This document shows, in pieces, positions 7,130 through 35,383 of a DNA stretch of 64,000 bases. The position numbers and the translations under genes are program-made. Under the pieces are notes generated by a model, which saw nothing but the letters and a program-made list of their open reading frames with translations, was not told the DNA's origin and did no database searches. The number at the start of each line of letters is the position of its first letter. Position 1 is the stretch's first letter. Source of the stretch: Sulfurovum sp. 16-42-52. GTDB taxonomy: Bacteria; Campylobacterota; Campylobacteria; Campylobacterales; Sulfurovaceae. The stretch covers positions 1 through 64,000 of the forward strand of contig NCHB01000004.1 in the NCBI GenBank assembly GCA_002281755.1, in the 5' to 3' direction.

Positions 7130-7534
7130 ATGAGCCAAATGTTATTTACCACCATCAACGAAGAGAATATTGAAATACTCGTACGGACATTTTACCCTGA
7201 AGTACTCAAAGATGCTCTGTTGGCTCCTTTTTTTATAGCAAAACTGGGTGATGACATACAAAGCCAAGAATGGGAAGAACACTTGGTTTTGCTCACGGAG
7301 TTTTGGAAATTTGTATCTTTAGGTTACGATAACTACACCGGTAATCCCCTGCAGCCGCACTTTCATATCGCAGACCTCAGTGCTGAAGCATTTGCGCGTT
7401 GGCTCAGCGTTTTTCATCAGACCGTTGATAGGCTCTATACGCCGTCCGTTGGTGAATACTTCAAACAAAAAAGCACCAATATCGCTGAGAACTTCATGCG
7501 AAAACTAGGTATTTCACGACCAAATCCCCATTGA
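7130..7534 (+). CDS. Group III truncated haemoglobin
   Basis: 134 aa from ATG 7130; the frame is open further upstream but overlaps the preceding gene. The sequence follows group III truncated globins such as Campylobacter Ctb: an N-terminal FTTINEENIEILVRTFYPEV, a WEEHLVLLTEFWKFV helix, GNPLQPHFHI near the proximal His, then AFARWLSVFHQTVDRLY with the Trp characteristic of the group. It binds O2, NO or peroxide at haem and is thought to modulate respiration or detoxify. Expected second gene of a two-gene operon. Confidence 0.88.
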   Translation: MSQMLFTTINEENIEILVRTFYPEVLKDALLAPFFIAKLGDDIQSQEWEEHLVLLTEFWKFVSLGYDNYTGNPLQPHFHIADLSAEAFARWLSVFHQTVDRLYTPSVGEYFKQKSTNIAENFMRKLGISRPNPH

Positions 7535-7832
7535 TTATTAAAATCGGATAAATTTTGTGTGTTTCATTTTATCTCAAATACACCCCAATCTAAGGTTTCC
7601 TTCTCTACACACTAAGTAACTCTGCACTAATTTGGTTATGATGCTTATGTATTTGAGACGTTATGCTACACATAAGTGCCTCTTATGGTTTGTACTACAA
7701 ACAAAACCACCCATATATGCACATCCTCTGCTAATATATGAAGCAGCATTATAGAAATCGAGAGACTTTGTCTATAACTTAAGTCTCCATTTATTATAAG
7801 TATATATAATTAATATTTTAGGGAGTTTTACT
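7535..7832. promoter_or_regulatory. Intergenic region upstream of the dab operon
   Basis: 298 bp with no credible gene. It must hold the promoter of the dab operon. An inverted repeat CTTATGT (7644-7650) / ACATAAG (7670-7676) lies about 180 nt before dabB, and AT-rich runs (TATATATAATTAATATT) precede the GGGAG ribosome binding site. No regulator gene is adjacent. A promoter is inferred; no specific box could be assigned. Confidence 0.4.
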
Positions 7833-9443
7833 ATGGAAAAACTAGTGTTACTGATACCATTTCTACCTATTGTGATAGCTACCATGATAGGCTTTTTAAA
7901 CAAAAAAGAGCATATGCCCAAAGTGGCTATCTTTTTTTCCTCTATGGTTGCACTTTTGGCGCTGTATGGCACCTATTATGTGATGAGCACCGATCAAGAC
8001 ATTGATGGTTTCGGCGGCTATCTTATCTACAATGAACTCTCTGCCATACTTGTACCGTATGTTGCCATACTGGGGCTAGTCATTCGCAAATACTCTACCA
8101 AATATATGTGGGATGAACCGGGATACAAACGATTTTTTGTCCTCTTGAACTTCATCTTCTCTGCCATTTATCTGCTTGTGATGAGTAACAATCTGATTAT
8201 CCTGACCATCGCGTGGCAACTGATGAGTATCAGTCTGTATCTGCTTATCTCCTTTAACGTTGAATCCAAATCTGCCATCAAAAACGGGGGCTGGACGATG
8301 CTTGTACACAAGCTTGCAGACCTCTTTTTTATTATCGCTGTGATTCTTACTTACAAAACATTTGGCAGTTTTGAGTTGACCGAACTGAGTCAAAAATGGT
8401 TGGCACTTTTCCAAAGCGGGCCTGTTGATGATGCGATGATTTACCTTATCGGTTTTCTTTTCCTGTTTGCTGCAATGATGAAATCAGCCATCATGCCCTT
8501 TCACCTTTGGCTTCCCTATACTTCAGAAGCACCCACACCCGTCTCAGCTCTCATGCACGCCGGGGTTGTAAATGTTGGCGGGATTCTTTTGAACAAAATG
8601 GCATTTTTGCTTCTTTTAACCCCGGCTGTACTCAATGTAGCCTTTGTCATGGGTTTGATCACCGCTGTTTTTGCTTCCATCCTGATGCTAGCCGTATCCG
8701 ATATCAAACGTTCGCTGGGCTACTCAACAGTGGGTCAAATGGGATACATGATCATGGAAGTGGGACTTGGTGCCTTTAGCCTTGCTATCTATCATCTTAT
8801 GGTGCACGGTATCTTTAAAGCCTCTTTATTTTTAGAATCAGGCAGTCTCATTCACCAGGCAAGAAAAGAGCCCAACGTGCCAAGAAGGCTTTCACATGAA
8901 ATTTTTTGGGAAGAGAAACCGCAGTACAACAGCATCAATATGTTCCGTATGATTGCATTTTTTGCGGTATTTCCTGTCATCGTATTTACAGGCGTGAAGT
9001 TTTTACTCGGAGAAGACCTGTTCCATTTTAACGCAGCAACACTCATCATCGCTTTTGCCTGGCTGACCGGGACACAACTCTTTTTATCTTTTTTTGAGGT
9101 CTCTAAAGCCAATTCACCCAAGGTGATTCTTGCGCTCATAAGCTCTTTTATCGTGGTACTGTTTACCTACGAATTTGTAGGGCTCGCGCTGGAGCATTTC
9201 CTCTATGGCAAAAATGGGGAATTGTTTTATGAAGTGGCTACCCTGCACGTATCAGGCACCATGACGATACTGATGCTCATAGCTATCATGTTGGTCGGTT
9301 GGTATTTCACCTATAGACAACATTTTGTCGGTGTGCCACTAGGTGAACACAAACCCAATAAATCAAAATGGCGTATCTATAAGATGCTGGCAAAAGAAGG
9401 CTACATCTCCGATTTGTATGTCAAATATTTTAAAATATTTTAA
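7833..9443 (+). CDS. dabB: DabB-type inorganic carbon transporter subunit (NuoL/ND5-like)
   Basis: 536 aa, about 13-14 membrane helices. It belongs to the ND5/MrpA proton-channel superfamily: the motif MMKSAIMPFHLWLPYTSEAPTP is followed by VSALMHAGVVNVGG and SDIKRSLGYSTVGQMGYM. In Dab systems this subunit couples ion flux to bicarbonate production by DabA. No other complex I genes are nearby, and dabA lies downstream in the same operon, which decides the call against NuoL. GGGAG precedes the ATG. It is followed 12 nt later by the extra membrane gene. Confidence 0.9.
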   Translation: MEKLVLLIPFLPIVIATMIGFLNKKEHMPKVAIFFSSMVALLALYGTYYVMSTDQDIDGFGGYLIYNELSAILVPYVAILGLVIRKYSTKYMWDEPGYKRFFVLLNFIFSAIYLLVMSNNLIILTIAWQLMSISLYLLISFNVESKSAIKNGGWTMLVHKLADLFFIIAVILTYKTFGSFELTELSQKWLALFQSGPVDDAMIYLIGFLFLFAAMMKSAIMPFHLWLPYTSEAPTPVSALMHAGVVNVGGILLNKMAFLLLLTPAVLNVAFVMGLITAVFASILMLAVSDIKRSLGYSTVGQMGYMIMEVGLGAFSLAIYHLMVHGIFKASLFLESGSLIHQARKEPNVPRRLSHEIFWEEKPQYNSINMFRMIAFFAVFPVIVFTGVKFLLGEDLFHFNAATLIIAFAWLTGTQLFLSFFEVSKANSPKVILALISSFIVVLFTYEFVGLALEHFLYGKNGELFYEVATLHVSGTMTILMLIAIMLVGWYFTYRQHFVGVPLGEHKPNKSKWRIYKMLAKEGYISDLYVKYFKIF

Positions 9444-9455
9444 AGGGGAGAATGA

Positions 9456-10190
9456 ATGCTTATAGATTTTATACTCTTATTTTTATTTGCGGGAGTACCC
9501 TATTATCTGGTTTTTGAAAAAATACCTGTCATGAGAAAAGACAAAATTTTTCCTCTTGCAGCGCTGCTTGTCATTGCCGGAATGGTTATCTCTTACCAAT
9601 TTCCGCACGAGACGTCTATGCCTTTTGTGATGGTTGCCTTTCTTGCATCTTTGTTTTCGCTTCACAAGGCAAACCAGACAAACAACCTGTGCAAACTGAC
9701 CTATTATATCCTGTTCTTTAACGCACCTTTACTTATCATGTTCAAGACAAAAGAGAGTATCTTGTACGGTGTATCGCTTATTGTGGCGCTGATGGGTGTT
9801 TATCTGATGGGCAAATATTATGCACGAAGTTATGGCAGCCCGAACTATCAGTCAGTCAGCGGTATTACCTTGGTGACTCCTTATGCCGGGCTCATTTTAA
9901 CCGTCTACTTTACTGCATTGGCGCTCTATCCGCCGTTTCCCAATGCCTTGCTCTTTCTTAATGGTATTTTGAAGTCAGAAATCAGCATCCTGTGGTACCT
10001 GATTGTCATTGTTATCTTTTTTGGAAATTTTTTGATTGCGGTACGCGTCATGGCAAAAACCGTATTTGGTAAACCCAATGACAATGTGCATTACATTGAT
10101 ATCTCACCAACAGAAAGAGTACTGCATCTGCTCATCATAGCAGCGTTACTGCTTCTAAGCGTTATAGGACTACAGGAGGTACTTTCATGA
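9456..10190 (+). CDS. Extra membrane subunit of the Dab operon, ND4/ND5-derived
   Basis: 244 aa, about seven hydrophobic helices. It lies between dabB and dabA, with a GGGGAG ribosome binding site and a 4-nt ATGA overlap with dabA, so it is firmly part of the operon. The motif ALYPPFPNALLFLNGIL resembles the conserved PPF loop of late helices in NuoM/NuoN/MrpA antiporter-like proteins, suggesting a partial antiporter-like fold. The described minimal Dab pump needs only DabA and DabB. This could be a dedicated third subunit; function not established. Confidence 0.65.
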   Translation: MLIDFILLFLFAGVPYYLVFEKIPVMRKDKIFPLAALLVIAGMVISYQFPHETSMPFVMVAFLASLFSLHKANQTNNLCKLTYYILFFNAPLLIMFKTKESILYGVSLIVALMGVYLMGKYYARSYGSPNYQSVSGITLVTPYAGLILTVYFTALALYPPFPNALLFLNGILKSEISILWYLIVIVIFFGNFLIAVRVMAKTVFGKPNDNVHYIDISPTERVLHLLIIAALLLLSVIGLQEVLS

Positions 10191-13060
10191 GTATACTTGA
10201 AAAATTAAATGCAATTAAAGACACAGTGCCGCACTATTGGCCAATCGGTGCTTTTATCCACCACAATCCGCTCAAGGGGTTTGAACATCTCAATTTTAAA
10301 GAAGCGCTCACCAAAGCACAACAGACATTCGGTGGCAAAGTCTATATGGATTCAGACTACTATATCGGGCTCTTTAAAGAGGGTAAAATTAGCCCTGAAG
10401 TGTTAGAAAAAAACCTGCTTAGGGTGCTTAAAGAAGCAAAACTTGAACGTTATTTAGAGCAGGCTAAGACCTTTATGCTTGAAGTAAGCCCGCTATGGAA
10501 CAGCTACAGAAGCTATGAAGCCTTAAAAATAAACGAGATAGATGAAACCCTGCATAGCTATCTTGAAGAAAACGCTATCTACAAAGATGAAGAAGCATGG
10601 ATTGCTTCACTCACGAAAAATATGACACTCTACGAGATCCATGATGCCTTGTTTGGCACCAGTAAAAAAGAGCTCATAGAAAAAGATGTCATAGAGTTTG
10701 TCGCACGTTTTCTTGATCAGCAACAAACCACACTGAGTATGACCGACAGAGATTTGGGTATGTTTGAAACCTTTAAACTGTATGAAAATATCGACTATAT
10801 CATTGATGTAGAAGAGTTTGTACAAGAAGCGCTTGATACGCTCAAAGTGCAAGATGTACAGACATACTTCCTCACACACATCCTCAAGCTGCACGGATGG
10901 GCAGGCTACATCAAATACCGCTCTGAAGCCAAAGAGTATTATGCCCAGCAGGAACACCCTTCAACACTGATGGACTATATGGCAATCCGCTTACATTTCG
11001 AAGTCAAATATTTAAGCAAAAAAAAGATTAATGATTTTGAAAAACTGCAAGCCTATATCAAAAGCAATACGCCTTACGCCATACTCAAACTCTTGCAGGC
11101 AAAAGGCAAACTGACCGGTACCTACAACGATGCCATGGAAGAGCATCACGACTATCAAGAGATTGTAGATGCTTATGCTAAAGATGAGATCAATCTCAAT
11201 TCGCTTCAGGTTCAGCTTGCACAAAAAGCCGTGCAAATGGACGATATGACTCCTATAGCCTTTTCCAATTTTGCCAATCTGCTTAAAAAAGAAGAAGGGT
11301 TTATCTGGCTAAAGTCTTTGGAAGACTCTTATATCGCAACCCATGTCGATGCATTTACTTCACTGCATACCTATGACAAAAAACCGCTTTCCTCGACCAT
11401 ATTTTGTCTGGATGTCAGATCAGAAGTGATACGACGAAAAGTAGAAGAATCAGGACCATACACGACCTATGGTGCTGGCGGTTTTTTGGGGATTCCCATC
11501 TCGTTTGTCGAGTTTGACAAAGCCCATGCACTCTCACTGGCTCCTGCAGTGATCAAACCCGAGAATATTGTTTTTGAAATACCCGTCGAATCACATGAAA
11601 CGTACAATTCCCAAAAAAGTGTCAACAAGACCACCAAAAAAGTACTCAGTGATCTTAAAAACAATCCTTATACTCCCTACGTCATGGTGGAAGCAATCGG
11701 ATGGCTTTTTGGCTTCAAACTTTTTGGCAAAACCTTTTTTCCCAAAAAAACACATATTATGTTTAGCAAGTCAAAACCCGTCAAACCCAAAACCACCTAT
11801 ACACTCGACAAGCTCTCAGAAGAAGAGATAGAGAAGTATGTCAAAAGACTGCATACCAATATCATCAATGAAGTCTTAACAACGCAATTTGGTACTGGAC
11901 TCAACTCTTCAGATATCATCCTGCTTTGGGAACATCTCGTGTTTGACAAACCGCTCAAGATAAGAATCTCATCAGACATCATAGACAATCTAAAACAAGC
12001 CTATCATATCACCAGCGAGGACTATGAGATTCAAAAAGTCAATCTCTCCAAAGTGGGCTTCACCATTGATGAGCAGGTGATGTACATCGAAAATCTTCTC
12101 AAGATGATTGGGCTTATCGATGCGTTTCCGAAATTTCTCATTATCTCTGGGCACGGAAGCTGCTCAGACAACAACCCGTTTGAGTCAGCCCTTGACTGCG
12201 GAGCGTGTGGTGGCAGCATTTCGCTTCCCAATGCACGTGCATTGAGCATGATAGCCAACAAGCCTGAAATACGCGAAAAACTCATAAGCAGAGGTATATC
12301 CATACCTGAAGAGACACGTTTTATTCCTGCTTTGCATATCACGACGACCGATGAGATGACTTTTTACGATACCGAGATACTCAACACCAAAGAGTTAGAA
12401 CTGTTTTCGGGTATGCAAGAAGACTTTAAAAAGGCGTCACTCGCTTCAAGAGAAGAAAGAGCCAAAGTTCTACCCAATGCAAAACATGAGAAAGATTTGT
12501 TTATTAAAACGATGGATTGGTCTGAGCCTAGACCGGAATGGGGACTAGCAGGCAATATGGGTGTATTTGCAGGGCCAAGAGACTCTTGCAGACATATGCC
12601 TCTGTACAATAGACTCTTTTTACACTCCTATGATGCCACTATTGATAACGAAAATGCCGATATACTCACCCGTATCTTTAACGGCCCTTTGGTTGTAGGT
12701 CAATGGATTAATCTTGAGCATTATTTCTCAACTGTAGATAATAAAGTCTACGGAGCAGGCTCAAAAGTCTATCACAATGTTGTCTCTAAAATCGGTGTGT
12801 ACAATGGGAACTACAGTGATTTAAAGATTGGTCTTCCTACCCAGAGCGTTTTAGAAGAGGGGAAAGCCTATCATGAGCCTGTTCGTCTGCTGACCTATAT
12901 GGAAGCACCGCTTGAAACAGTTGCCAAAGCCGTGGAAAATTCCGTAGCAAAAGAGTTTATCCTCAACGAATGGATACGACCCATTATCATAGACAAAGCA
13001 GCCAAAAAAGTCTATTCTTACGAGTTTGGAGAATTTATTGTCATCAAAGAACTTGCTTAG
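10187..13060 (+). CDS. dabA: DabA inorganic carbon uptake protein (DUF2309/UPF0753)
   Basis: 957 aa. DabA is a zinc-dependent, beta-carbonic-anhydrase-like protein that works with DabB to trap CO2 as bicarbonate in the cytoplasm. The expected zinc/active-site residues are present: Cys407 and Asp409 in FCLDVRSE, His656 in SGHGSCSDN and Cys671 in ALDCGACGGS. The C-x-D pair and the 15-residue His-to-Cys spacing match the Halothiobacillus enzyme. Strong AGGAGG site, start coupled to the previous gene by ATGA. Genes for small Cys-rich proteins and a COG0523 GTPase follow. Confidence 0.95.
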   Translation: MSILEKLNAIKDTVPHYWPIGAFIHHNPLKGFEHLNFKEALTKAQQTFGGKVYMDSDYYIGLFKEGKISPEVLEKNLLRVLKEAKLERYLEQAKTFMLEVSPLWNSYRSYEALKINEIDETLHSYLEENAIYKDEEAWIASLTKNMTLYEIHDALFGTSKKELIEKDVIEFVARFLDQQQTTLSMTDRDLGMFETFKLYENIDYIIDVEEFVQEALDTLKVQDVQTYFLTHILKLHGWAGYIKYRSEAKEYYAQQEHPSTLMDYMAIRLHFEVKYLSKKKINDFEKLQAYIKSNTPYAILKLLQAKGKLTGTYNDAMEEHHDYQEIVDAYAKDEINLNSLQVQLAQKAVQMDDMTPIAFSNFANLLKKEEGFIWLKSLEDSYIATHVDAFTSLHTYDKKPLSSTIFCLDVRSEVIRRKVEESGPYTTYGAGGFLGIPISFVEFDKAHALSLAPAVIKPENIVFEIPVESHETYNSQKSVNKTTKKVLSDLKNNPYTPYVMVEAIGWLFGFKLFGKTFFPKKTHIMFSKSKPVKPKTTYTLDKLSEEEIEKYVKRLHTNIINEVLTTQFGTGLNSSDIILLWEHLVFDKPLKIRISSDIIDNLKQAYHITSEDYEIQKVNLSKVGFTIDEQVMYIENLLKMIGLIDAFPKFLIISGHGSCSDNNPFESALDCGACGGSISLPNARALSMIANKPEIREKLISRGISIPEETRFIPALHITTTDEMTFYDTEILNTKELELFSGMQEDFKKASLASREERAKVLPNAKHEKDLFIKTMDWSEPRPEWGLAGNMGVFAGPRDSCRHMPLYNRLFLHSYDATIDNENADILTRIFNGPLVVGQWINLEHYFSTVDNKVYGAGSKVYHNVVSKIGVYNGNYSDLKIGLPTQSVLEEGKAYHEPVRLLTYMEAPLETVAKAVENSVAKEFILNEWIRPIIIDKAAKKVYSYEFGEFIVIKELA

Positions 13061-13123
13061 CATAGTGATGCTATAACTTACTGTCAAAAGCAGTGAATGC
13101 TTTACACCATTTAAAGGAAAAAA

Positions 13124-13351
13124 ATGTACAAAATTCATATTGAAAACGAATGTAGCTGTTTCAAAAAAAGCACATTTGAAAATGACATGACGTTCAAAAA
13201 TAAACCTGATGCGCTGATGCAAGCCAAAATTATGGAGTGTCGGATGAATCAGGAGTTCTGCCATACTCACTTTTTTGAGGCAGAGGACATGGGGGAAGAT
13301 ATTATTATAAGAAGTATTGTTCGCCCCATAGATGATGAGGATGAAGACTAA
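13124..13351 (+). CDS. Small Cys-rich protein, paralogue A (lacks the CCGGGHC tail)
   Basis: 75 aa. It shares a framework with the proteins at 13446 and 35138: ECxCFxxSxxE at the N terminus, then FxNxxxA and MNxxFCxxHxF near residues 41-50. The C terminus is acidic (PIDDEDED) and lacks the Cys/His-rich tail of the other two. An AAAGGA site precedes the ATG and the gene lies 63 nt after dabA. Not a family I can name. The conserved Cys and His suggest metal binding or redox activity, an inference only. Confidence 0.75.
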   Translation: MYKIHIENECSCFKKSTFENDMTFKNKPDALMQAKIMECRMNQEFCHTHFFEAEDMGEDIIIRSIVRPIDDEDED

Positions 13352-13356
13352 ATAAA

Positions 13357-13377
13357 GCAGAAAAATTCTGCGTTTTT
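13357..13377 (+). terminator. Terminator after small protein A
   Basis: GCAGAA (13357-13362), 3-nt loop, TTCTGC (13366-13371), then GTTTTT. It lies 6 nt beyond the stop codon of the upstream small gene and would end the dab transcript or attenuate it before paralogue B. Confidence 0.75.
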
Positions 13378-13445
13378 ATCTTTAATCTTTATTTAAGCTC
13401 TTGATGCTATTATCGCTCATTAATTTATTTATAAAAGGATACTAT

Positions 13446-13688
13446 ATGTTCACAGTACAAGTTGAAAGAGAGTGCGGATGTTTCCGTAGAAGTGAAATCG
13501 AAAAAGAGAAGACGTTTCAAAACAGAGAAGATGCTATCTCTTACTCAAAAGCCATAGCAGAAATCATGAATGAAGACTTCTGTAAAAAACATCATTTTAC
13601 AGCCAAAGCAAGTGCTGGAAATGACTTTGTAATTGGTGTAGGTGAAGGCTCAGGTGGCGGTTGCTGCGGTGGTGGGCACTGCGGCTAA
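13446..13688 (+). CDS. Small Cys-rich protein, paralogue B with CCGGGHC tail
   Basis: 80 aa from ATG 13446 with an AAAAGGA site; an upstream in-frame start at 13401 is less likely. N-terminal half: ECGCFRRSEIE, FQNREDA, then IMNEDFCKKHHF. A glycine-rich linker leads to the C-terminal CCGGGHCG, a compact Cys3-His motif fit for Zn, Ni or Cu. Paralogous to the genes at 13124 and 35138. Its position between dabA and a COG0523 GTPase suggests a role in metal storage or delivery to the zinc protein DabA; untested. Confidence 0.75.
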   Translation: MFTVQVERECGCFRRSEIEKEKTFQNREDAISYSKAIAEIMNEDFCKKHHFTAKASAGNDFVIGVGEGSGGGCCGGGHCG

Positions 13689-13694
13689 AAAGTC

Positions 13695-13726
13695 GTATAC
13701 ACGATACAAAAATGTATCGTGTATAC
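13695..13726. terminator. Perfect 14-bp hairpin between convergent genes
   Basis: GTATACACGATACA (13695-13708), loop AAAA, then its exact complement (13713-13726). It lies between small protein B and the convergent GTPase gene and probably ends transcription from both sides. T runs are short, so it may also act as an mRNA-stabilising hairpin. Confidence 0.65.
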
Positions 13727-13738
13727 ACCCTCTTCTAC

Positions 13739-14710
13739 CTAGCTTTTTAAGGTGAATCTTGGTAAAGAGAGAATCTCAAATTTTCGGCACAATTCTTGAA
13801 CATCTGCTTCAATATTCTCACCGATTAAAATAAGCAACGATTTCCCCTCATAAACATCAAGCTCTTCAAATGTTACATCGCCAAATGCATAGTTCACAAC
13901 GATAGCCTGAGGTACATCTTTCACTTTTACCACACCCTTAACCCGATAAATAGACAGAGGCATATTTTGTAATACCGCATCCACATCGGCAAAATAACTA
14001 TCATTTTTCAGGTAGACAACTTTTTGACCGAGAGAGTCTTTTGACGTATGGTCATGGTGACTGAAATCTTCTGCAAATTTCAGTACTTCTTCAAGCCTGT
14101 AAACGCCCTCAAAAACCTCTTTATTGACCAATCCATGCTGTGCTCTATGTATAACGTAATGATTGAAAATTGGCTTACCAGTCATCGTATTTTTGATATT
14201 GTATTTATCTTTTATTTCTCTAATCTCGTTTTCAACCGCTAAAGCTTCAGTTTCATCCACAAGATCGGTTTTATTGAGCACTATAATGTTCGAACCGCCA
14301 AGTTGATACTTCGCCGTAGAATTTTCTTTATAGGCAGAAAAATGTTTTGCATCTACCACACAAATCACACCCTCAACAGTGACACCCAGATTTTGCAAAG
14401 ACATATAAATTGGGAAAGGCTCAGATGCGCCGGAAGTTTCCACAAAAATAAGTTCAGGATTATAGTTAGCAATAATCTCCGTGACCCCTTTTTCAAACTC
14501 TTCAGAGAGTTGGCAACAGATACACCCCTCTGATATCTCAAGCACCTCACTATAGACATTTGTAAGGATTTTACTGTCTATACCTATGTCACCAAACTCA
14601 TTAACAATCACTGCAATTTTTTTATCCGGAAAATAGTGTTGTACACTGTTAGTCAGCATTGTCGTTTTACCGACACCCAAAAAACCTGTTATAACAAAAG
14701 AAGAAATCAT
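13739..14710 (-). CDS. COG0523/CobW-family GTPase, putative metallochaperone
   Basis: 323 aa. G3E-family GTPases load metals into client proteins. Walker A is GFLGVGKTT (residues 9-17). The family metal motif is EGCICCQL (Cys63, Cys65, Cys66 around residues 62-66), with an ETSGASEP switch and NKTDLVD specificity motif. A His-rich stretch FSHHDHTSK near residue 220 could bind metal. The C-terminal CobW-C domain is present. It converges on the dab operon and its small Cys-rich proteins. Zinc supply to DabA is the natural hypothesis; the metal is not determined by sequence. Confidence 0.88.
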   Translation of the reverse strand: MISSFVITGFLGVGKTTMLTNSVQHYFPDKKIAVIVNEFGDIGIDSKILTNVYSEVLEISEGCICCQLSEEFEKGVTEIIANYNPELIFVETSGASEPFPIYMSLQNLGVTVEGVICVVDAKHFSAYKENSTAKYQLGGSNIIVLNKTDLVDETEALAVENEIREIKDKYNIKNTMTGKPIFNHYVIHRAQHGLVNKEVFEGVYRLEEVLKFAEDFSHHDHTSKDSLGQKVVYLKNDSYFADVDAVLQNMPLSIYRVKGVVKVKDVPQAIVVNYAFGDVTFEELDVYEGKSLLILIGENIEADVQELCRKFEILSLPRFTLKS

Positions 14711-14828
14711 AAGAATACCTCGAAAAGATAGATGAAAGAATGAAGATACTCTCTATAAAAGTATACGATATAGTTTTATGAAGAGTATGAAGTACCATCT
14801 GTGTAAAACACACAGATAGTAAAAATTA

Positions 14829-15527
14829 TTAAGCTATTGGATCAAGAATTGGAGCCAATCCAACTTCTTTTGCCCAAGCTGCAGTTAAATCATACGCTGC
14901 TGATGCAGTGTCTAGGTTACTCTGAATTAAATCAAGTTTTTTCTTAAACTTTTTTTCGATAACAGAGTCAAGTGAAGCAGTACCACCTGAAGCAACATAT
15001 TTTTTAAGGAATCTGTCTTTGATACCTTCTTCAATCGCTGACTTACCAATAGTTCCCAAAGCACCAAACAGTGCACCCAACATTGCCATGTTTGTAGCAA
15101 GTTCAGTTCCTGCAATTTCGACGGCAAATTTTGTAAAGTCTCTTGTAAGAACTTTAACATTCTTTGATTCCAAGAATTTTCTATCAGAATCTGTTACAAG
15201 CTCATGATCACTATTGATAAGAACCAAACCATTCTCTTTAATACCAGAGTAAAAAGGCATCGTATATGATTTACCCATCGTGATAACCTGTGGATGATAC
15301 ACCATAATAATATCAGGATAAATAACCTCTCCTCTGTCATATATAGGCACTGTTCCTATTCTTGTATAACTTTCAGAAGGTGCCATTCTTTTCTCAGCAC
15401 CAAAAAATGGATTTGAAACGGCATAGTACCCTTCTGTATCAGCAGCCGTAGCTGCAATGTGTGCAGCAGTAACTGCACCTTGTCCGCCTAGAGCAGGCAT
15501 TCTGATTTTAATTGAATCTTTTGACAT
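14829..15527 (-). CDS. 2-oxoacid:ferredoxin oxidoreductase gamma subunit (set 2)
   Basis: 232 aa. The gamma subunit binds the CoA-side domain; MPALGGQGAVTAAHI is the glycine-rich signature, followed by NPFFGAEKRMAPSESYTRIG. It is longer than the usual ~185-residue gamma subunit, having a C-terminal helical extension as in the five-subunit enzymes of Hydrogenobacter. Last gene of the nine-gene cluster, its start sharing one base with the stop of the beta gene. Very similar to the gamma subunit at 18606. Substrate (pyruvate or 2-oxoglutarate) not assigned. Confidence 0.9.
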   Translation of the reverse strand: MSKDSIKIRMPALGGQGAVTAAHIAATAADTEGYYAVSNPFFGAEKRMAPSESYTRIGTVPIYDRGEVIYPDIIMVYHPQVITMGKSYTMPFYSGIKENGLVLINSDHELVTDSDRKFLESKNVKVLTRDFTKFAVEIAGTELATNMAMLGALFGALGTIGKSAIEEGIKDRFLKKYVASGGTASLDSVIEKKFKKKLDLIQSNLDTASAAYDLTAAWAKEVGLAPILDPIA

Positions 15528-16387
15528 TAAAGAATTCCCTCCTTCTTACAGTTTTTCAAGTACTCTTCAGCTTCAGGAGAAACATATTTAAACGAAACAA
15601 ATCTATCTTTATCTTGCTCTTTCATTTCCCATAGTCCTTCATTGGCATCCAAACCAATTTCAAGAATACATGGTGTATAGAGGTGGATATAGCTAGGTCC
15701 CATTTCTCTTGCAATTAAAATCGCTTCTCTTACAACTTTTGCAACTGATTTTGGCGCAGAAGCAGTCAATTTAACTGAATACTGACAACCTGAAGTAACA
15801 GCCAATTCCCACATTGGTACTTTATCAAATACCTTACCTTTAGGTGCCATTTTAAAGACTTGACCTTTAGGTGTGGAACCACTTTCTTGACCACCTGTGT
15901 TAGCATACACTTCGTTGTCAAAACAAATTGTTGTAATTTTTTCTTGTCTAAAGAATGACTGCAAAGTATAGTCAAGACCGATATCGATAGTCGCACCGTC
16001 ACCCGCTAGAACAACAACATCTTTTGTTTTATCTGGGAATCTCCAGTCTAAAACTCTTTTGATACCAGAAGCAACAGCATTTTGGTTACCAAACAAAGAG
16101 TGCACTGTGTGCAACGCAATATGTGGGAACATCAAAGAAGTACACCCTGTGGAGTTAACAATAACAGTCTCAGACGGTGTTGGCAATGAAGCCAAAATGT
16201 ATCTCAAAGCAGCTGCTTCAGGACATCCTGCACACAAAGAGTGTTCTTCAAGAATCTCTTTTTTATCTGTTAGGTCATTGATACCGCGTTTTTCGCCATC
16301 CCAAGTTGCATTGTCCTCAAGATCAAGAATCTCTTTTGGCATGATGTCTCTGAACTCTGGGTTAATTTTGTAAATATCTACTGACAT
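15527..16387 (-). CDS. 2-oxoacid:ferredoxin oxidoreductase beta subunit (set 2)
   Basis: 286 aa. The beta subunit binds thiamine diphosphate and a [4Fe-4S] cluster. CAGCPEAAALRY near residue 52 gives two cluster cysteines. The ThDP motif starts at GDGATIDIG and ends with DNEVYANTGGQ. SGSTPKGQVFKMAPKGK is typical of this subunit. One of two paralogous beta genes in the cluster (the other at 19312), so the cell has two enzymes of different 2-oxoacid specificity. It lies 1 nt after the alpha gene. Confidence 0.92.
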   Translation of the reverse strand: MSVDIYKINPEFRDIMPKEILDLEDNATWDGEKRGINDLTDKKEILEEHSLCAGCPEAAALRYILASLPTPSETVIVNSTGCTSLMFPHIALHTVHSLFGNQNAVASGIKRVLDWRFPDKTKDVVVLAGDGATIDIGLDYTLQSFFRQEKITTICFDNEVYANTGGQESGSTPKGQVFKMAPKGKVFDKVPMWELAVTSGCQYSVKLTASAPKSVAKVVREAILIAREMGPSYIHLYTPCILEIGLDANEGLWEMKEQDKDRFVSFKYVSPEAEEYLKNCKKEGIL

Positions 16388-16388
16388 A

Positions 16389-17582
16389 TTATGCCCCTTT
16401 CTCTACATTTTCTAAAACTTCTTTTAGAATAGCCTCTACTGGCATACTCATACCACCAGCAACTCTAGGTCTACCAATAACTTTCGCTTCAGATTTACCA
16501 TAAAGTGATTGTGTCACTTCTTTTTCTAGCCAGCCAACAATGTTAAACTCAGGTACAAAGATATATTTTGCACTTTTTGTTGCTTCAAGCAATTCAGCAT
16601 GTGGGAATGGTCTAATTGTTCTTAATTTAACCACTTTTGACTTGATACCCATTTTTGTCAATTCTCTATTGGCTTCTTTTGCCTGGTGAGACGCTGTTCC
16701 ACACGCAACAAATACGATTTCAGCATCTTGGTCACCCGTTACGTGTGCCAAACCATTTAAGAAATGTTTTGCATACGGTCTAGATCTGTCTACAGCAGAT
16801 CGTACTTCCCACTGCCAACTTGCATGGGTTGCATAAGAGATATAGTTTGATTTCATTACGAAAGGATCTCTTAAAAATCTTCCCGGAGGCATCTCTGAAT
16901 CAATTGGAGGCAGTGGTGCTTTATACGGGTTGTATGGGAACAACGCGATATCATCAGCAGGAAGCATAACTGATTCTCTTGTATGAGATACAAAGAATCC
17001 ATCAACCGCTGTAATAATCGGCACGTGTACATCCGGCATTTCAGCCACAGTAAATGCTGCGATACTCATATCAAAAAGTTCTTGAACATTCTCAGCATAC
17101 CAAATCATACAACCTGTCTCTAGAAGGAAAGACACTTCAAGGTTATCCGGTTGAATTGTAAGTGGTGAGTTAATACCTCTAGCCATCAAAACAAGCTGAC
17201 ATGGGATTCTTGTACCTGACCACATTGGGAAGTTTTCCATCGCTCTAAGTGTACCAGGTCCAGAAGTAGTGGTAACTGTTCTAGCACCTGCCATAGCACA
17301 TCCTGCAACTTCAGACATAACACCAAATTCGTTTTCACCTCTAAAGTATGTACCTACATATCCTTCTGCCCACAATTCACCAATAAGGTGAGCTGCTTCA
17401 GATTGAGGTGTAATAGGATACGATACCGATGCATCTACTGTACATCTTTTCATGGCCTCTTTGAGTACTTCTGAACCTGTCATAAAGTGTTTTTCTCTAG
17501 GTGCCTCAAAAAGTAAATAATCAGTCGAAACCATAGTTTGACCTGACCAGTTTTTTTCTTTTGTCATATTTTTTATACTCAT
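16389..17582 (-). CDS. 2-oxoacid:ferredoxin oxidoreductase alpha subunit (set 2)
   Basis: 397 aa. The alpha subunit contributes the pyrimidine-binding domain: SYPITPQSEAAHLIGELWAEG near residue 58, GENEFGVMSEVAGCAMAGAR and TTTSGPGTLRAMENFP. The C-terminal domain has PEFNIVGWLEKEV. Catalyses reversible oxidative decarboxylation; in reductive TCA bacteria it runs as a carboxylase. Similar throughout to the alpha subunit at 20198. Start at ATG 17582 follows a GGAGG site (AGGAGGTTACT), 15 nt after the E gene. Confidence 0.92.
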   Translation of the reverse strand: MSIKNMTKEKNWSGQTMVSTDYLLFEAPREKHFMTGSEVLKEAMKRCTVDASVSYPITPQSEAAHLIGELWAEGYVGTYFRGENEFGVMSEVAGCAMAGARTVTTTSGPGTLRAMENFPMWSGTRIPCQLVLMARGINSPLTIQPDNLEVSFLLETGCMIWYAENVQELFDMSIAAFTVAEMPDVHVPIITAVDGFFVSHTRESVMLPADDIALFPYNPYKAPLPPIDSEMPPGRFLRDPFVMKSNYISYATHASWQWEVRSAVDRSRPYAKHFLNGLAHVTGDQDAEIVFVACGTASHQAKEANRELTKMGIKSKVVKLRTIRPFPHAELLEATKSAKYIFVPEFNIVGWLEKEVTQSLYGKSEAKVIGRPRVAGGMSMPVEAILKEVLENVEKGA

Positions 17583-17597
17583 AGTAACCTCCTAGCC

Positions 17598-18167
17598 CTA
17601 TTTTCCAAGCTCTTGCTTGACTTCTCTGGCAACTTTAATAAATCTTGCCAAATCTTCTGAGTGCTGATCTCTAATCGTTGCCATTGCATCCTCATGTCCT
17701 GAAAGTGCACACATTGCAGAGGTATAACAATCTGTTTCCGCTCTTACAATTTTTAATGCAACGTTTGCATAATGGCAGTGAACACCAATAAAGATACATG
17801 CTTTGATGTTATTGTGCCAAATCGTCAAGTTTGGATGGTTAGGGTTTATTTCAACCGCTGCATCAATCTTAGGATATTTTGGTCTGTAATCATACATCGG
17901 TATCATTCTAGCATTCAAAACTTCAGCCATTTCTTTAATCAGCGTTGCTTTTTTCTTTGCTTCTTCATTCCATGCATACAAAACTTGTGGTCCTGGAAAG
18001 ATAGTCGCATTTTCGCTTGTCAACATTACTCTAGCAATTTCTCTCATTGCCACTTCTTCATCAACGATATCAGTCAACAGTAAAGCTTTGCCTTCAGGTG
18101 GCGTTAGTATGCCATCATACGTAGCAACTGGATACGGTGAATAGTCAGCTGGGCCTAAATTAGCCAT
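17598..18167 (-). CDS. Fifth (E-type) subunit of five-subunit 2-oxoacid oxidoreductase (set 2)
   Basis: 189 aa. It resembles the small extra subunit of five-subunit oxidoreductases (PorE/ForE in Hydrogenobacter), often annotated as CO-dehydrogenase-beta-like. Visible landmarks are PEGKALLLTDIVDEEVAMREIAR, TIFPGPQVLYAW, YRPKYPKIDAAVEINPNHPN and FIGVHCHYANVALKIVRAETDCYT. About 48 residues shorter than its paralogue at 21383, lacking that protein's N- and C-terminal extensions. Function within the complex is not known. AAGGAG site before the ATG. Confidence 0.82.
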   Translation of the reverse strand: MANLGPADYSPYPVATYDGILTPPEGKALLLTDIVDEEVAMREIARVMLTSENATIFPGPQVLYAWNEEAKKKATLIKEMAEVLNARMIPMYDYRPKYPKIDAAVEINPNHPNLTIWHNNIKACIFIGVHCHYANVALKIVRAETDCYTSAMCALSGHEDAMATIRDQHSEDLARFIKVAREVKQELGK

Positions 18168-18346
18168 TATTTTCTCCTTAATTTTAACTTGTGTAGTCTT
18201 ATGCCGTATGTAGAGTGTTTACTTTTTGGATCTTTTATAGATATGGGAGTAAATCTTGTTTACAAGGCTTAATACCTTATCTTTTTGTTATTAACAAAAA
18301 GATGTCTAAATCGCTGAACGAAGGAATAAATTCCCTCCTTCAGAAT

Positions 18347-18592
18347 TTACGCTTCTTCTGTTGTAACCATTACCATTTCAATACAATTTCTGTCTAGTAA
18401 GTCTGAACATACATATACACAAATTGCACATCCTTTACATCTGTCTTCATCTACCCAAGATGTACCATTTGAATTACCGTGTTTTGGTTCTTTATCATAC
18501 ATCAAAGTGTTTGCCTCTGGACAGTAAAGTGTACACATGTTACATTTGTGTGTTGAACACATTTCTGAATTTACTTTTGCTACGTAATACAT
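18347..18592 (-). CDS. Ferredoxin-like delta subunit (2x[4Fe-4S]) of 2-oxoacid oxidoreductase
   Basis: 81 aa. Two cluster motifs are present: CSTHKCNMCTLYC (C-x4-C-x2-C-x3-C) and CKGCAICVYVC (C-x2-C-x2-C-x3-C). It passes electrons between ferredoxin and the core enzyme. The first motif is widened by two residues against the usual C-x2-C-x2-C-x3-C. It is the only D gene for two EABG sets, so it either serves both complexes or belongs to set 1, which it directly follows (13 nt). AAAGGA site. Confidence 0.9.
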   Translation of the reverse strand: MYYVAKVNSEMCSTHKCNMCTLYCPEANTLMYDKEPKHGNSNGTSWVDEDRCKGCAICVYVCSDLLDRNCIEMVMVTTEEA

Positions 18593-18605
18593 TATTTTTC
18601 CTTTA

Positions 18606-19310
18606 TTATGCGTCTAGTTTGATGATAAGTGCATCTGTGTTTAAATCAATAGAGTCTGCCAATTTGAAAGTCTCATTAATAACCTCCATGTTCTTCTGAA
18701 GCAACTCTTCTTTCTTCTTGAACTTTTTCTCAATAGCTGAGTCAAGAGAAGCTGTACCACCAGAAGCAACAAACGAATTACCCAAGAATCTTTCTCTTAC
18801 GGCTTTTTCAATGTTGTCTTTACTTACAAGTTTTGTGATTCCAAGTACCATACCCATCATTGCCATGTTTGTTGCAAGTTCAGTACCTGCAATTTTAATT
18901 GCCAATTCTGTTGCATTAAATTGAACGACTTTTGTGCCAAGATCTTTCAATACTTTTGTATCATCCGCATCAAGAATATCAACATCAGTGTTAATAATAA
19001 TCAAACTATTTCTTTTCAAACCCGTATAAAAAGGCATCGTATATGATTTTCCATGTGTTACAACCTGTGGGTGGTAAATCATAATAATATCTGGATATAC
19101 AACTTCACCTACTTCATAAATAGGCTGTGAAGATGCTCTTACATAAGCTTCAACCGGAGCCATTCTTTTTTCAGAACCGAAAAATGGTACCAAAGAAGCA
19201 AATTTACCGGCATTATCCATCGCAGATCCAAGAATGTGAGCAGAGGTAACAACCCCTTGCCCGCCAAGCCCGGAAATACGCATATTATATCTTTTTTTAT
19301 CTACTGCCAT
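18606..19310 (-). CDS. 2-oxoacid:ferredoxin oxidoreductase gamma subunit (set 1)
   Basis: 234 aa. Gamma signature MRISGLGGQGVVTSAHILG at the N terminus, VPFFGSEKRMAPVEAYVRA following, and IAGTELATNMAMMG, shared with the set 2 copy. Ends in a long helical extension typical of the five-subunit type. Set 1 order is E-A-B-G-D. Starts 1 nt after the beta gene stop, so expression is tightly coupled. Paralogous to the gene at 14829. Confidence 0.9.
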   Translation of the reverse strand: MAVDKKRYNMRISGLGGQGVVTSAHILGSAMDNAGKFASLVPFFGSEKRMAPVEAYVRASSQPIYEVGEVVYPDIIMIYHPQVVTHGKSYTMPFYTGLKRNSLIIINTDVDILDADDTKVLKDLGTKVVQFNATELAIKIAGTELATNMAMMGMVLGITKLVSKDNIEKAVRERFLGNSFVASGGTASLDSAIEKKFKKKEELLQKNMEVINETFKLADSIDLNTDALIIKLDA

Positions 19311-19311
19311 A

Positions 19312-20187
19312 TTAGCTTACCTCTCTTTTGTTTTTAGATTCAATTTGAGCAAACAACTCTTTTGCTTCATCTGTCATATATTCTTCATAAGCGAATCGAC
19401 CTTTTTCCATCTCTTTTGCATCTCTAAATACATCATTAGTTGGAATTGAGTACTCAATGTTACAAGATGTATACACATGAAGGAACGTTGGTCCAAGTGT
19501 TCTTGCTGCAAAGATTGCTCTTCTGATCGCTTTTGACGCTTTATTGATATTGGTTGGTGACATTTTAACAACATAGACACATCCAGCTGTAATAGCGAGT
19601 TGCATAGCTGGCATTTTACCAAACTTTTTACCCGTTGGAGACATCTTAAGAATAGCACCTTCCATACTCATACCACTCTCTTGACCACCTGTGTTACCAT
19701 AGACTTCGTTATCCAACATAATAGTAGTAAATCTTTCACGTCTAAACCAAGCATGCATCGTCATAGAGAAACCGATATCCATCATACCGCCATCACCTGC
19801 AATAGTAATAACATCTTTATGTCTATCTGGGAATCTTAGTCTAAATGCACGTGTAATACCAGATGCCATAGCATTTTGGTCTCCATAGTTACCATAAATG
19901 AACGGTACCGCTGCTTGTGAAATCGCAAGTCTTCCACACCCTGCTGTACCGATTGTTACTGTATCTTCTGGGTTTGGAAGTGATGCAAAAATTATTTTAA
20001 TATAATATGCCATCCAGCATCCAGAACACATTGGGTGCTCTTCAACCAGTTCTTTGTATGTACCCATGTTTTTTACGCCTACATCATTGTAGTCTTTACC
20101 AAATGGGCCGTAATCTACCAACTCGACATAGTCTTTTGGTAGATATTTCTTAAATTTTGACGCTGGAATCATATATCTTAAACTCAT
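19312..20187 (-). CDS. 2-oxoacid:ferredoxin oxidoreductase beta subunit (set 1)
   Basis: 291 aa. Cluster cysteines in EEHPMCSGCWMAYY, ThDP motif from GDGGMMDIGFSMT to DNEVYGNTGGQ, and MEGAILKMSPTGKKFGKMP. It differs from the set 2 beta subunit in the residues after the cluster pair (WMAYYIK against PEAAALRY), which may relate to substrate choice. Part of the E-A-B-G-D set; gap of 10 nt from the alpha gene. Confidence 0.92.
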   Translation of the reverse strand: MSLRYMIPASKFKKYLPKDYVELVDYGPFGKDYNDVGVKNMGTYKELVEEHPMCSGCWMAYYIKIIFASLPNPEDTVTIGTAGCGRLAISQAAVPFIYGNYGDQNAMASGITRAFRLRFPDRHKDVITIAGDGGMMDIGFSMTMHAWFRRERFTTIMLDNEVYGNTGGQESGMSMEGAILKMSPTGKKFGKMPAMQLAITAGCVYVVKMSPTNINKASKAIRRAIFAARTLGPTFLHVYTSCNIEYSIPTNDVFRDAKEMEKGRFAYEEYMTDEAKELFAQIESKNKREVS

Positions 20188-20197
20188 TGTAACTCCC

Positions 20198-21367
20198 TTA
20201 TGCTTGTAGTGTTTCGGATTTCATACCAAGAGCCATATAGACTTGCTCCATGATCAATTCCACAGGTAATGTCATACCACCATATACTCTTGGACCATCT
20301 ACGACAATACCACTGTTTGGAATAGCTGCTTTTACTTCTGTAGCCAACCAACCAATAATATTGTGTTCCGGAATAATTACTTTTTTAGCATTTTTCAATG
20401 CTGCACGAATTTCTTCTTTAGGGAAAGGTCTGATTGCTCTTACTTTAATAAAACCAACACTCAACTCTTCCTCTTGTGCATATCTGTGTGCTTCTCTTGC
20501 TTGTGCTGCTGCACAGCCTGATGCAAGAACAAATACATCTGCATCCGGATTTTGCACTTCAATTGGTCCACCAAGGTATTGATAGATATATTTCATTGCT
20601 CTTTTGTTAGAGTCCCAAATCTCTTGCTGCCATACTGAGTGAATCAAATAAGACATGAAGTTAGACTTTTGAACCGGTGCATCTCTTTGAATTCTTGCCG
20701 GTGGTACTTCGTTGTCCATTGCTGGAACTGGTGCTGCATACGGATCTGGCTCGTTAAATGCCAACTCTTCAGAAGTCATATCAACATAACCTTTTGCATG
20801 TGTTACAAAGAAACCTTCCGTTGCAACCGCTACAGGAATATACACATCTACTTTTTCAGTAATGGCAAATGCTGCCAAAGTCATATCAAATGTATCTTGC
20901 TGATTTTCTGCATGCAAGAGAACGACACCACTATGAAGAAGGTATGCCATCTCAATATTATCTGGTTGAATCGAAAGTGGTGCGTTAACAACTCTTGTAA
21001 GTACACCCAATACACATGGCACTCTGTGTCCTGGCCAAGAAACAATCGCCTCAAGTCCTCTTAACAGTCCTGGTCCTGATGTTGCCGTAAACAGACGTAC
21101 ACCTGCTCTTGCAGCACCAGCAATTGCTGACATCGTACCAAGCTCTTCTTCAGCTCTATAGTACTCTTTGATGTGCCCTTGTGCAAAAATATCACCGACA
21201 AGGTGCATTACTTCAGACTGTGGAGTAATAGGATAGGCAATAGCCATATCAACACTTGCTCTTTTAACAGCTTCAGCCATTGCCTGAGCACCAGTAATAA
21301 AATGCTTTTCTCTTGGAGCCTCTTTTAAGAGGTAATCCATACTTACTAATGTTTTATTTAAACTCAT
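20198..21367 (-). CDS. 2-oxoacid:ferredoxin oxidoreductase alpha subunit (set 1)
   Basis: 389 aa. AYPITPQSEVMHLVGDIFAQG near residue 39, RAEEELGTMSAIAGAARAGVR and TATSGPGLLRGLEAI define the alpha subunit; the C-terminal PEHNIIGWLATEV is shared with set 2. A GTPPARIQRDAP-like segment (EVPPARIQRDAP) parallels EMPPGRFLRDP in the paralogue. Reversible CO2-fixing enzyme of the reductive TCA cycle. Start preceded by AAGGAGAG. Confidence 0.92.
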   Translation of the reverse strand: MSLNKTLVSMDYLLKEAPREKHFITGAQAMAEAVKRASVDMAIAYPITPQSEVMHLVGDIFAQGHIKEYYRAEEELGTMSAIAGAARAGVRLFTATSGPGLLRGLEAIVSWPGHRVPCVLGVLTRVVNAPLSIQPDNIEMAYLLHSGVVLLHAENQQDTFDMTLAAFAITEKVDVYIPVAVATEGFFVTHAKGYVDMTSEELAFNEPDPYAAPVPAMDNEVPPARIQRDAPVQKSNFMSYLIHSVWQQEIWDSNKRAMKYIYQYLGGPIEVQNPDADVFVLASGCAAAQAREAHRYAQEEELSVGFIKVRAIRPFPKEEIRAALKNAKKVIIPEHNIIGWLATEVKAAIPNSGIVVDGPRVYGGMTLPVELIMEQVYMALGMKSETLQA

Positions 21368-21382
21368 TTATCTCTCCTTATC

Positions 21383-22096
21383 TTATTCAACATCTGCGAT
21401 GTGTTCGCCTTTTTTACTCATGAGGAGACTTCTGTACTCACCATAATCAGCCGGCGTAAGTGTTCCCCAATCCTCTTTTGGCAAAGATGGGTTTTCTGGT
21501 GGCATTTTTGCTGTCCACTCAATACCTAGTTCATTTCTTACTTGAACAAGGATGTCTCTAAATCTAAGTACATCTTCAGCATGAACATCTCTGATAGAAG
21601 CCATTGCTTCTTCGTGACCCATAAATGCACACATTGCTATCGTGTAACAATCTGTACCAGCTCTAATCATTCTTAATGAAAGGTTTGCATAATGACAGTG
21701 CACACCGATGAAAACAGCTGCTTTAATCTTGTTATGCAAAATTGTTAAGTTAGGGTGATTCGGGTTGATTTCCGCTTCTGCATCAATTTTTGGATACTTA
21801 GGTCTATAGTCTGGCATAGGGATGATTTTACAATTTGGAATCTCAGCTGCAAGATCCAAAATCGCTGCTGATTTTTCAGCTACGTCATCTTTCCAGTCCC
21901 ATAATACTTGTGGTCCAGGGAAGATAGTTGGGTTGGCCATCGTCAACAAAGCTTTTGCAGCATCTCTCATCGCCTCTTCTTCTTCTACAATGTTGCCATA
22001 TAGCAACGCCTTACCTTCGGGCGAAAGCTCAACTCCCATAGATGGTGCCGATTGTGGCATATAACCCACTGGACCAACTGTTATTTTCTTTGACAT
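21383..22096 (-). CDS. Fifth (E-type) subunit of five-subunit 2-oxoacid oxidoreductase (set 1)
   Basis: 237 aa, first gene of the nine-gene operon. Shares with the gene at 17598 the blocks TIFPGPQVLWDWKDD, YRPKYPKIDAEAEINPNHPN and FIGVHCHYANLSLRMIRAGTDCYT. It has a distinct C-terminal extension rich in Pro (MPPENPSLPKEDWGTLTPADYGEYR), absent from the second copy. TPADYGEYR echoes the N-terminal GPADYSPYP of that copy. AAGGAGAATC precedes the ATG. Function of this subunit in the complex is unknown. Confidence 0.82.
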   Translation of the reverse strand: MSKKITVGPVGYMPQSAPSMGVELSPEGKALLYGNIVEEEEAMRDAAKALLTMANPTIFPGPQVLWDWKDDVAEKSAAILDLAAEIPNCKIIPMPDYRPKYPKIDAEAEINPNHPNLTILHNKIKAAVFIGVHCHYANLSLRMIRAGTDCYTIAMCAFMGHEEAMASIRDVHAEDVLRFRDILVQVRNELGIEWTAKMPPENPSLPKEDWGTLTPADYGEYRSLLMSKKGEHIADVE

Positions 22097-35137: not shown

Positions 35138-35383
35138 ATGTCAACAATAACTATCGTTCAAGAATGCGGATGCTTCAAAAGAAGTGACCTAGAAAACAAT
35201 ACCTCTTTTGAGAACAATGATGAGGCGATGATAAAAGCACAAGAGATGCTCAATCACATGAACACGAAATTTTGTGGAAAACATGGCTTTGAACTCAGTG
35301 AGAACGGTCAAGACTTCAGCATCGCGATGAAAGCACCACAAGCTGCATCCGGCGGTTGCTGTGGAGGCGGTCACTGTAGCTAA
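35138..35383 (+). CDS. Small Cys-rich protein, paralogue C with CCGGGHC tail
   Basis: 81 aa. Same framework as the proteins after dabA: QECGCFKRSDLE, FENNDEA, HMNTKFCGKHGF, and a C-terminal GGCCGGGHCS. AAAAGGA site. Divergent from the formate dehydrogenase gene with 110 nt between, so both may use one control region. Metal binding is likely from the Cys/His tail; the metal and partner are unknown. No named family recognised. Confidence 0.78.
   Translation: MSTITIVQECGCFKRSDLENNTSFENNDEAMIKAQEMLNHMNTKFCGKHGFELSENGQDFSIAMKAPQAASGGCCGGGHCS

Follow-up and report, generated by a model that had tools for sequence, protein, structure and literature searches.

The DNA considered here is a 64,000 nt stretch from Sulfurovum sp. 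16-42-52 (assembly GCA_002281755.1, contig NCHB01000004.1, positions 1 to 64,000), hereafter the window. At positions 7833-14710 it carries a gene block for a DAB carbon-uptake pump (DabB, a third membrane subunit and the zinc subunit DabA), two small proteins, S1 and S2, and a convergently oriented GTPase of the COG0523 group. The best explanation for this arrangement, with about an even chance of being correct, is that S1 and S2 hold zinc and, together with the GTPase, fill the metal site of DabA. The original prediction, made from the window sequence alone, that the small proteins and the GTPase handle zinc for DabA gained from the linkage of S1 to dabA, from the co-occurrence of the GTPase and dabA, and from a sister clade of the GTPase that lies in a zinc regulon. 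However the GTPase gene is also fixed to the end of an operon for five-subunit 2-oxoacid:ferredoxin oxidoreductases (POR/OOR; POR, pyruvate:ferredoxin oxidoreductase), so DabA is not its sole possible client.

Organization of the gene block

The features of the block are as follows.

7833-9443, plus strand: dabB, 536 aa, antiporter/NuoL-like DAB membrane subunit (PF00361, E 2.2e-45; PF00662)
9456-10190, plus strand: third DAB membrane subunit, 244 aa, no Pfam family
10187-13060, plus strand: dabA, 957 aa, beta-carbonic-anhydrase-like zinc subunit (PF10070, E 7e-207)
13124-13351, plus strand: S1, 75 aa, CxC...CxxH core and acidic tail, 63 bp 3′ of dabA
13446-13688, plus strand: S2, 80 aa, paralogue of S1 with the same core and a GGGCCGGGHCG tail
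13694-13727, no strand: strong hairpin separating the convergent genes for S2 and the GTPase, a probable terminator
14710-13739, minus strand: COG0523 GTPase (CobW-like), 323 aa (PF02492, E 5e-46; PF07683, E 4e-7)

All the genes named in the original prediction were found in place by open reading frames (ORFs) and Pfam, and the two small proteins are indeed paralogous, with 38% identity (E 2e-16). The listed ORF that begins at 13401 is an upstream extension of S2. A promoter scan of positions 7500-15000 gave 20 candidates against 19.8 expected from shuffled sequences, i.e., no excess, and therefore no transcription units are inferred from promoters. Upstream of dabB, at 7130-7534, is a truncated-globin-like gene (PF01152, E 0.009, below Pfam's cut-off).

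The DAB pump and its zinc site

A PF10070 DabA with a Cys2His site, adjoined by a PF00361 DabB, marks the system by its genes as a DAB inorganic-carbon transporter, which would accumulate its substrate in an energy-coupled manner. DabA residues C407, H656 and C671 align with C351, H524 and C539 of DabA2 (PDB 9rd0), and D409 and R411 align with the Asp-Arg dyad D353 and R355. The zinc-site residues of DabA2, and its zinc content by inductively coupled plasma mass spectrometry, are given in PMC13144422. Thus every zinc-site residue of the solved protein is present, in line with the earlier assignment of DabA as a zinc protein, and neither the Cys nor the His ligands vary among 23 relatives or among four DabA proteins that belong to another class. 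An additional metal site specific to the present class was also sought among the DabA sequences, and none was found: the Cys conserved in this class (407, 671 and 674) show the same degree of conservation in the other.

At all loci the gene for the third subunit is kept in the middle, flanked by dabB and dabA. It shows a weak match to the C-terminal part of hydrogenase-4 subunit F (E 6e-6), and the folds nearest to its AlphaFold2 (AF2) model (pLDDT 79) are antiporter-like, of the NuoM/MrpD type (Foldseek E ~5e-3, probability 1.0). By gene order, the system is of the three-subunit DAB1 type. In one locus (L205, genome G405, contig C15) dabA is split into several frames, probably by assembly indels; that genome is 69% complete.

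Linkage and co-occurrence of the genes

The order dabB, middle subunit, dabA, S1 and, in some loci, S2 recurs in members of three Campylobacterota families (f1, f6 and f16), and because gene order is kept across these the block is not a product of chance. S1 is directly 3′ of dabA at every locus of this DabA class that has a readable flank. A first scan for loci was made with S2 as query, and in the 11 loci recovered the dab-S-GTPase block is intact up to the limits of the contigs. Since these loci had been picked up via S2, whole genomes were later searched with DabA and the GTPase as separate queries, in an order-wide sample of 299 Campylobacterales genomes and in a sample of 175 genomes of the host's family. 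The resulting counts are not read as probabilities, as genomes of common ancestry are not independent.

A DabA of any kind is present in 7 of the 299 genomes, and the present class (59-67% identity or more) in four, G000, G107, G197 and G248. A GTPase of at least 65% identity is found in exactly the same four. In the family sample, dabA was detected in 25 of 175 genomes and a GTPase match in 23, with both present in 21 of the 25 dabA genomes. The four dabA-positive genomes that lack the GTPase have dabA on scraps of 3.2-3.7 kb. As to GTPase matches, G375 has the GTPase, with an end of dabA at the edge of its contig, and the GTPase of G357 is of the zinc-regulon type. The expected co-occurrence with dabA in Campylobacterota is seen for the GTPase, in nearly all genomes that carry this class of dabA; within the S family, it is the S1 and S2 copies alone that are dab-linked.

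Where S2 is missing, the remaining genes differ in ways that hint that S2 and the GTPase may work together. In G197 (locus L068) the single S1 bears a CCGGGKC tail, and in G370 and G380 (L197 and L200) the GTPase has lost the H-x-D-H loop, evolves fast and stands on a long branch. Independent recruitment of a GTPase in G370 and G380 was considered and is not demonstrated; the branch is long and its position in the tree unsettled.

The small-protein family

S1 and S2 are part of a large unannotated Campylobacterota family without a known fold. Neither they nor the family have a sequence match in Pfam, NCBIfam or the PDB, and profile and Pfam searches gave hits at chance level only. The AF2 model of S2 (pLDDT 80) has a disordered tail, and fold searches with it against the PDB and viral structures gave nothing better than E ~0.2. 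The family is represented in 137 of the 299 Campylobacterales genomes, with up to six copies per genome.

C10, C12, C46 and H49 are invariant across 29 aligned members, and 145 of 146 non-identical copies have the four-ligand CxC...CxxH core. S2 and many other members end in a Cys/His tail (e.g., GGCCGGGHC) that varies in sequence. In four loci a family copy is divergent from znuA. Two additional paralogues, not noticed in the original prediction, are found in the host genome.

35138-35383 of the window, plus strand: S3 (tail GGCCGGGHCS), in divergent orientation to a molybdopterin oxidoreductase of the formate-dehydrogenase type
C35:14850-15062 of the same genome (L223): fourth S paralogue, whose tail is longer and contains Cys, divergent from groES-groEL

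An S3-type copy divergent from a molybdopterin oxidoreductase of the formate-dehydrogenase type occurs in about 26 Sulfurovum loci. In G364 (L194:4600-5010) a hemerythrin-like ORF sits between S1 and S2.

The GTPase, its sister clade and the likely metal

The GTPase displays the motifs GKTT at residue 14, CICC (CxCC) at 63 and NKTD (NKxD) at 146, as in COG0523 proteins. It is the sole COG0523 protein of the genome, which had also gone unnoticed; the other PF02492 match is weak and looks HypB-like. A plasmid search for the GTPase returned only relatives near 30% identity.

In a tree that took in no characterised COG0523 subgroup, 24 dab/POR-linked GTPases group with 7 of the zinc-regulon type, and the 7 form one clade with 100/100 support. 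Genes of this sister clade adjoin ZnuABC, a Zur-like regulator, HisI, DksA and TonB receptors, the same gene set that is reported with Zur-regulated COG0523 proteins (PMC2770081). Their promoters share the palindrome AAATGCAAnTTArTTGCATTT, which is also found between an S copy and znuA in three loci and, in the host genome, near znuA and a TonB receptor (C8:9714-9728 and C24:5835-5849). Loci with the box are L052, L057, L058, L102, L103 and L215-L219. The palindrome is likely to be a Campylobacterota Zur operator, with the regulator presumed to bind there. From the zinc-regulon sister clade and the S copies divergent from znuA, zinc is therefore the likely metal of the dab-linked proteins.

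The box is found nowhere in the 64-kb window nor in the dab loci scanned, and the His-rich tail that most zinc-regulon GTPases have is lacking in the dab/POR-linked ones. The dab-linked GTPase is thus outside this starvation control, and would be a house supplier and not part of a starvation response. The earlier suggestion that the module is important at limiting metal is not borne out, as no Zur-like box is present at any dab locus tested.

Evidence weighing against DabA as client

Several observations weigh against the supply of zinc to DabA, and one concerns the genes beyond the GTPase. These are on the minus strand at 14829-22096 and comprise two oxidoreductase sets and a small ferredoxin-like gene, of the five-subunit kind.

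14829-18167, minus strand: first 2-oxoacid:ferredoxin oxidoreductase set (gamma 14829-15527, beta 15527-16387, alpha 16389-17582, delta 17598-18167), separated from the GTPase gene by 118 bp
18347-18592, minus strand: ferredoxin-like subunit (ORF call)
18606-22096, minus strand: second 2-oxoacid:ferredoxin oxidoreductase set (ORFs), with a gamma subunit 53% identical

The gamma subunit of the first set was assigned by PF01558 (E 3e-38) and the other subunits by reading the sequence. The five-subunit make-up (gamma, beta, alpha, delta and ferredoxin-like) is present here, and the five-gene arrangement is kept across loci. Enzymes of this kind are proposed to be oxygen-tolerant, and the ones found in Sulfurimonas pluma are reported to have their nearest relatives in Aquificales (PMC10066037). 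A second paper lists Sulfurovum among the carriers and reports DabAB as abundant in Aquifex (PMC10052474).

The GTPase gene directly follows porG, the gamma-subunit gene, a further point missed in the original prediction. At every readable locus it starts about 100-150 bp after porG, and this adjacency holds regardless of whether dab lies beyond the GTPase, as in the window, at the opposite end of the POR operon or on a different contig. The GTPase is not always beside dabA, and in G248 dabA is on a separate contig. Furthermore, the 4 of 299 genomes that have the present class of dabA and the GTPase are also those with PorG of this type. In the family sample this PorG occurs in 25 of 175 genomes, which are the dabA set apart from G375 and the contaminated, scrap-bearing G394. 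The PorG distribution therefore matches that of the GTPase, and co-occurrence alone cannot name the GTPase client. The co-occurrence of the GTPase and dabA, taken at first as strong functional evidence, was downgraded once PorG showed the same distribution.

These findings are what would be expected if the GTPase serves the five-subunit POR/OOR, in assembly or metal supply, with the rest of the island hitch-hiking and only S1 and S2 belonging to DAB. This is the main rival explanation, backed by the fixed position of the GTPase after porG and by the genomes that the two share, and it is considered doubtful. POR/OOR are thiamine and iron-sulfur enzymes, and to our knowledge no zinc site is known in them, whereas the zinc-regulon GTPases form the sister group of the GTPase clade, and the set has a known zinc enzyme in DabA. 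In addition, the divergence of the GTPase in G370 and G380 accompanies the loss of S2.

The genes for dab, S1/S2, the GTPase and POR are thus inherited together, as a single "aerobic rTCA" (reductive tricarboxylic acid cycle) set. PorG is 83-84% identical across three families, and many relatives are without the set, which suggests movement by horizontal transfer, with multiple loss as the alternative. The set is probably a mobile package across families of Campylobacterota.

The small proteins also provide points against the zinc supply. S2 is absent in G346, G370, G380 and G197, and is thus dispensable at several loci. The S1 tail is acidic and without Cys. It should be considered that S1 and S2 could be structural or regulatory subunits of DAB, with CxC...CxxH as a structural zinc knuckle and no transfer of metal. 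The constant position of S1 beside dabA is that of a stoichiometric subunit, a near-invariant core is typical of structural sites, and in the other DabA class the protein encoded next is instead PII-like, plausibly a regulator. This explanation is judged unlikely, since S2 and most family members have disordered, variable Cys/His tails, and one copy of the family pairs with znuA under a zinc-type box.

The other DabA class (G071, G223, G277 and contig C19 of G197) has a middle subunit and the PII-like protein, with no S gene and no GTPase; moreover neither a match to the S family, nor an ortholog of the GTPase, nor PorG of that type is present in G071, G223 and G277. Thus DabA as such can do without the module, which would be a class-specific addition if the proposed zinc supply is right. 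In this second class (L094-L097) the PII-like protein, of about 102 aa, is conserved and follows the dab genes. In L097 a beta-carbonic-anhydrase-like gene is found immediately upstream of dabB.

Finally, most S-family copies are away from zinc genes. Their neighbours vary and include formate dehydrogenase, superoxide dismutase (one copy), trigger factor, GroES and others, which weakens an assignment of the whole family to zinc. The original prediction had named the finding of small genes mostly away from dabA as a result that would refute it, and this is in part what is seen, as the majority of the 137 genomes with the family are without dabA. A different metal (iron, copper or nickel) might be handled by the small proteins and the GTPase for the oxygen tolerance of the set, with no relation to DabA. 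The copies beside superoxide dismutase, chaperonin, trigger-factor or formate-dehydrogenase genes would fit such a role, and COG0523 members differ in the metal that they handle (PMC2770081). It is nevertheless very improbable, as the closest COG0523 sisters found sit in zinc-type gene sets.

Proposed mechanism and significance

In the preferred explanation, zinc delivery to DabA, the three-subunit DAB pump would carry its own zinc supply. S1 and S2 would be cytosolic zinc-binding helpers that hold the metal at CxC...CxxH, with S2 adding a flexible Cys/His tail, and the COG0523 GTPase would load the zinc or gate its GTP-driven transfer into the buried Cys2His site of DabA. Zinc-filled DabA may be needed in quantity for CO2 fixation by the oxygen-tolerant five-subunit POR/OOR in oxygenated, CO2-poor water. 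More tentatively, and with somewhat less than an even chance, the block would constitute a dedicated DAB zinc-insertion pathway, with new CxC...CxxH carriers and a non-starvation GTPase, on one island with the five-subunit POR/OOR. With such an island, if real, the reductive TCA cycle of Campylobacterota could operate in water that is oxic and poor in CO2.

COG0523 GTPases are widespread and few have a known client, and a carbonic-anhydrase-like pump as partner, if true, would offer a clear assay. The S family is likewise widespread in Campylobacterota and unannotated. The joint inheritance of DAB, its accessories and the oxygen-tolerant POR/OOR suggests a ready-made genetic package with which CO2 would be fixed aerobically through the reductive TCA cycle. 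In the literature searched, the coverage of which was incomplete, no paper was found that names both DabA and COG0523.

Comparison with known systems

The dab-linked GTPase shares its CobW domains and the CxCC motif with the Zur-regulated COG0523 proteins of the YciC/ZigA type (PMC2770081). It differs from them in that the dab/POR-linked clade is without the His-rich tail and the dab loci are without the starvation box. The oxidoreductase genes resemble the five-subunit POR/OOR of Sulfurimonas pluma and Aquificales, which are also five-gene sets proposed to be oxygen-tolerant (PMC10066037, PMC10052474). The study of an oxic-plume Sulfurimonas in which the five-subunit enzymes are described (PMC10066037) does not discuss the association with dab, S and the GTPase, and with it the DAB part of the package; the terms bicarbonate and inorganic carbon give no text match there.

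With DAB2 of Halothiobacillus neapolitanus (DabA2-DabB2, PDB 9rd0) the present system shares the PF10070 family and identical zinc-site residues. DAB2 however has two subunits and no middle subunit, and the passages of PMC13144422 consulted here name no accessory metal protein. In gene order the system is like DAB1 of H. neapolitanus (hneap_0907-0909), in which the two large subunits DabA and DabB are encoded with a small membrane protein between them, as described in the same source. Unlike in DAB1, S1 and S2 follow the operon here, and the system is linked to a COG0523 GTPase and to the five-subunit POR/OOR.

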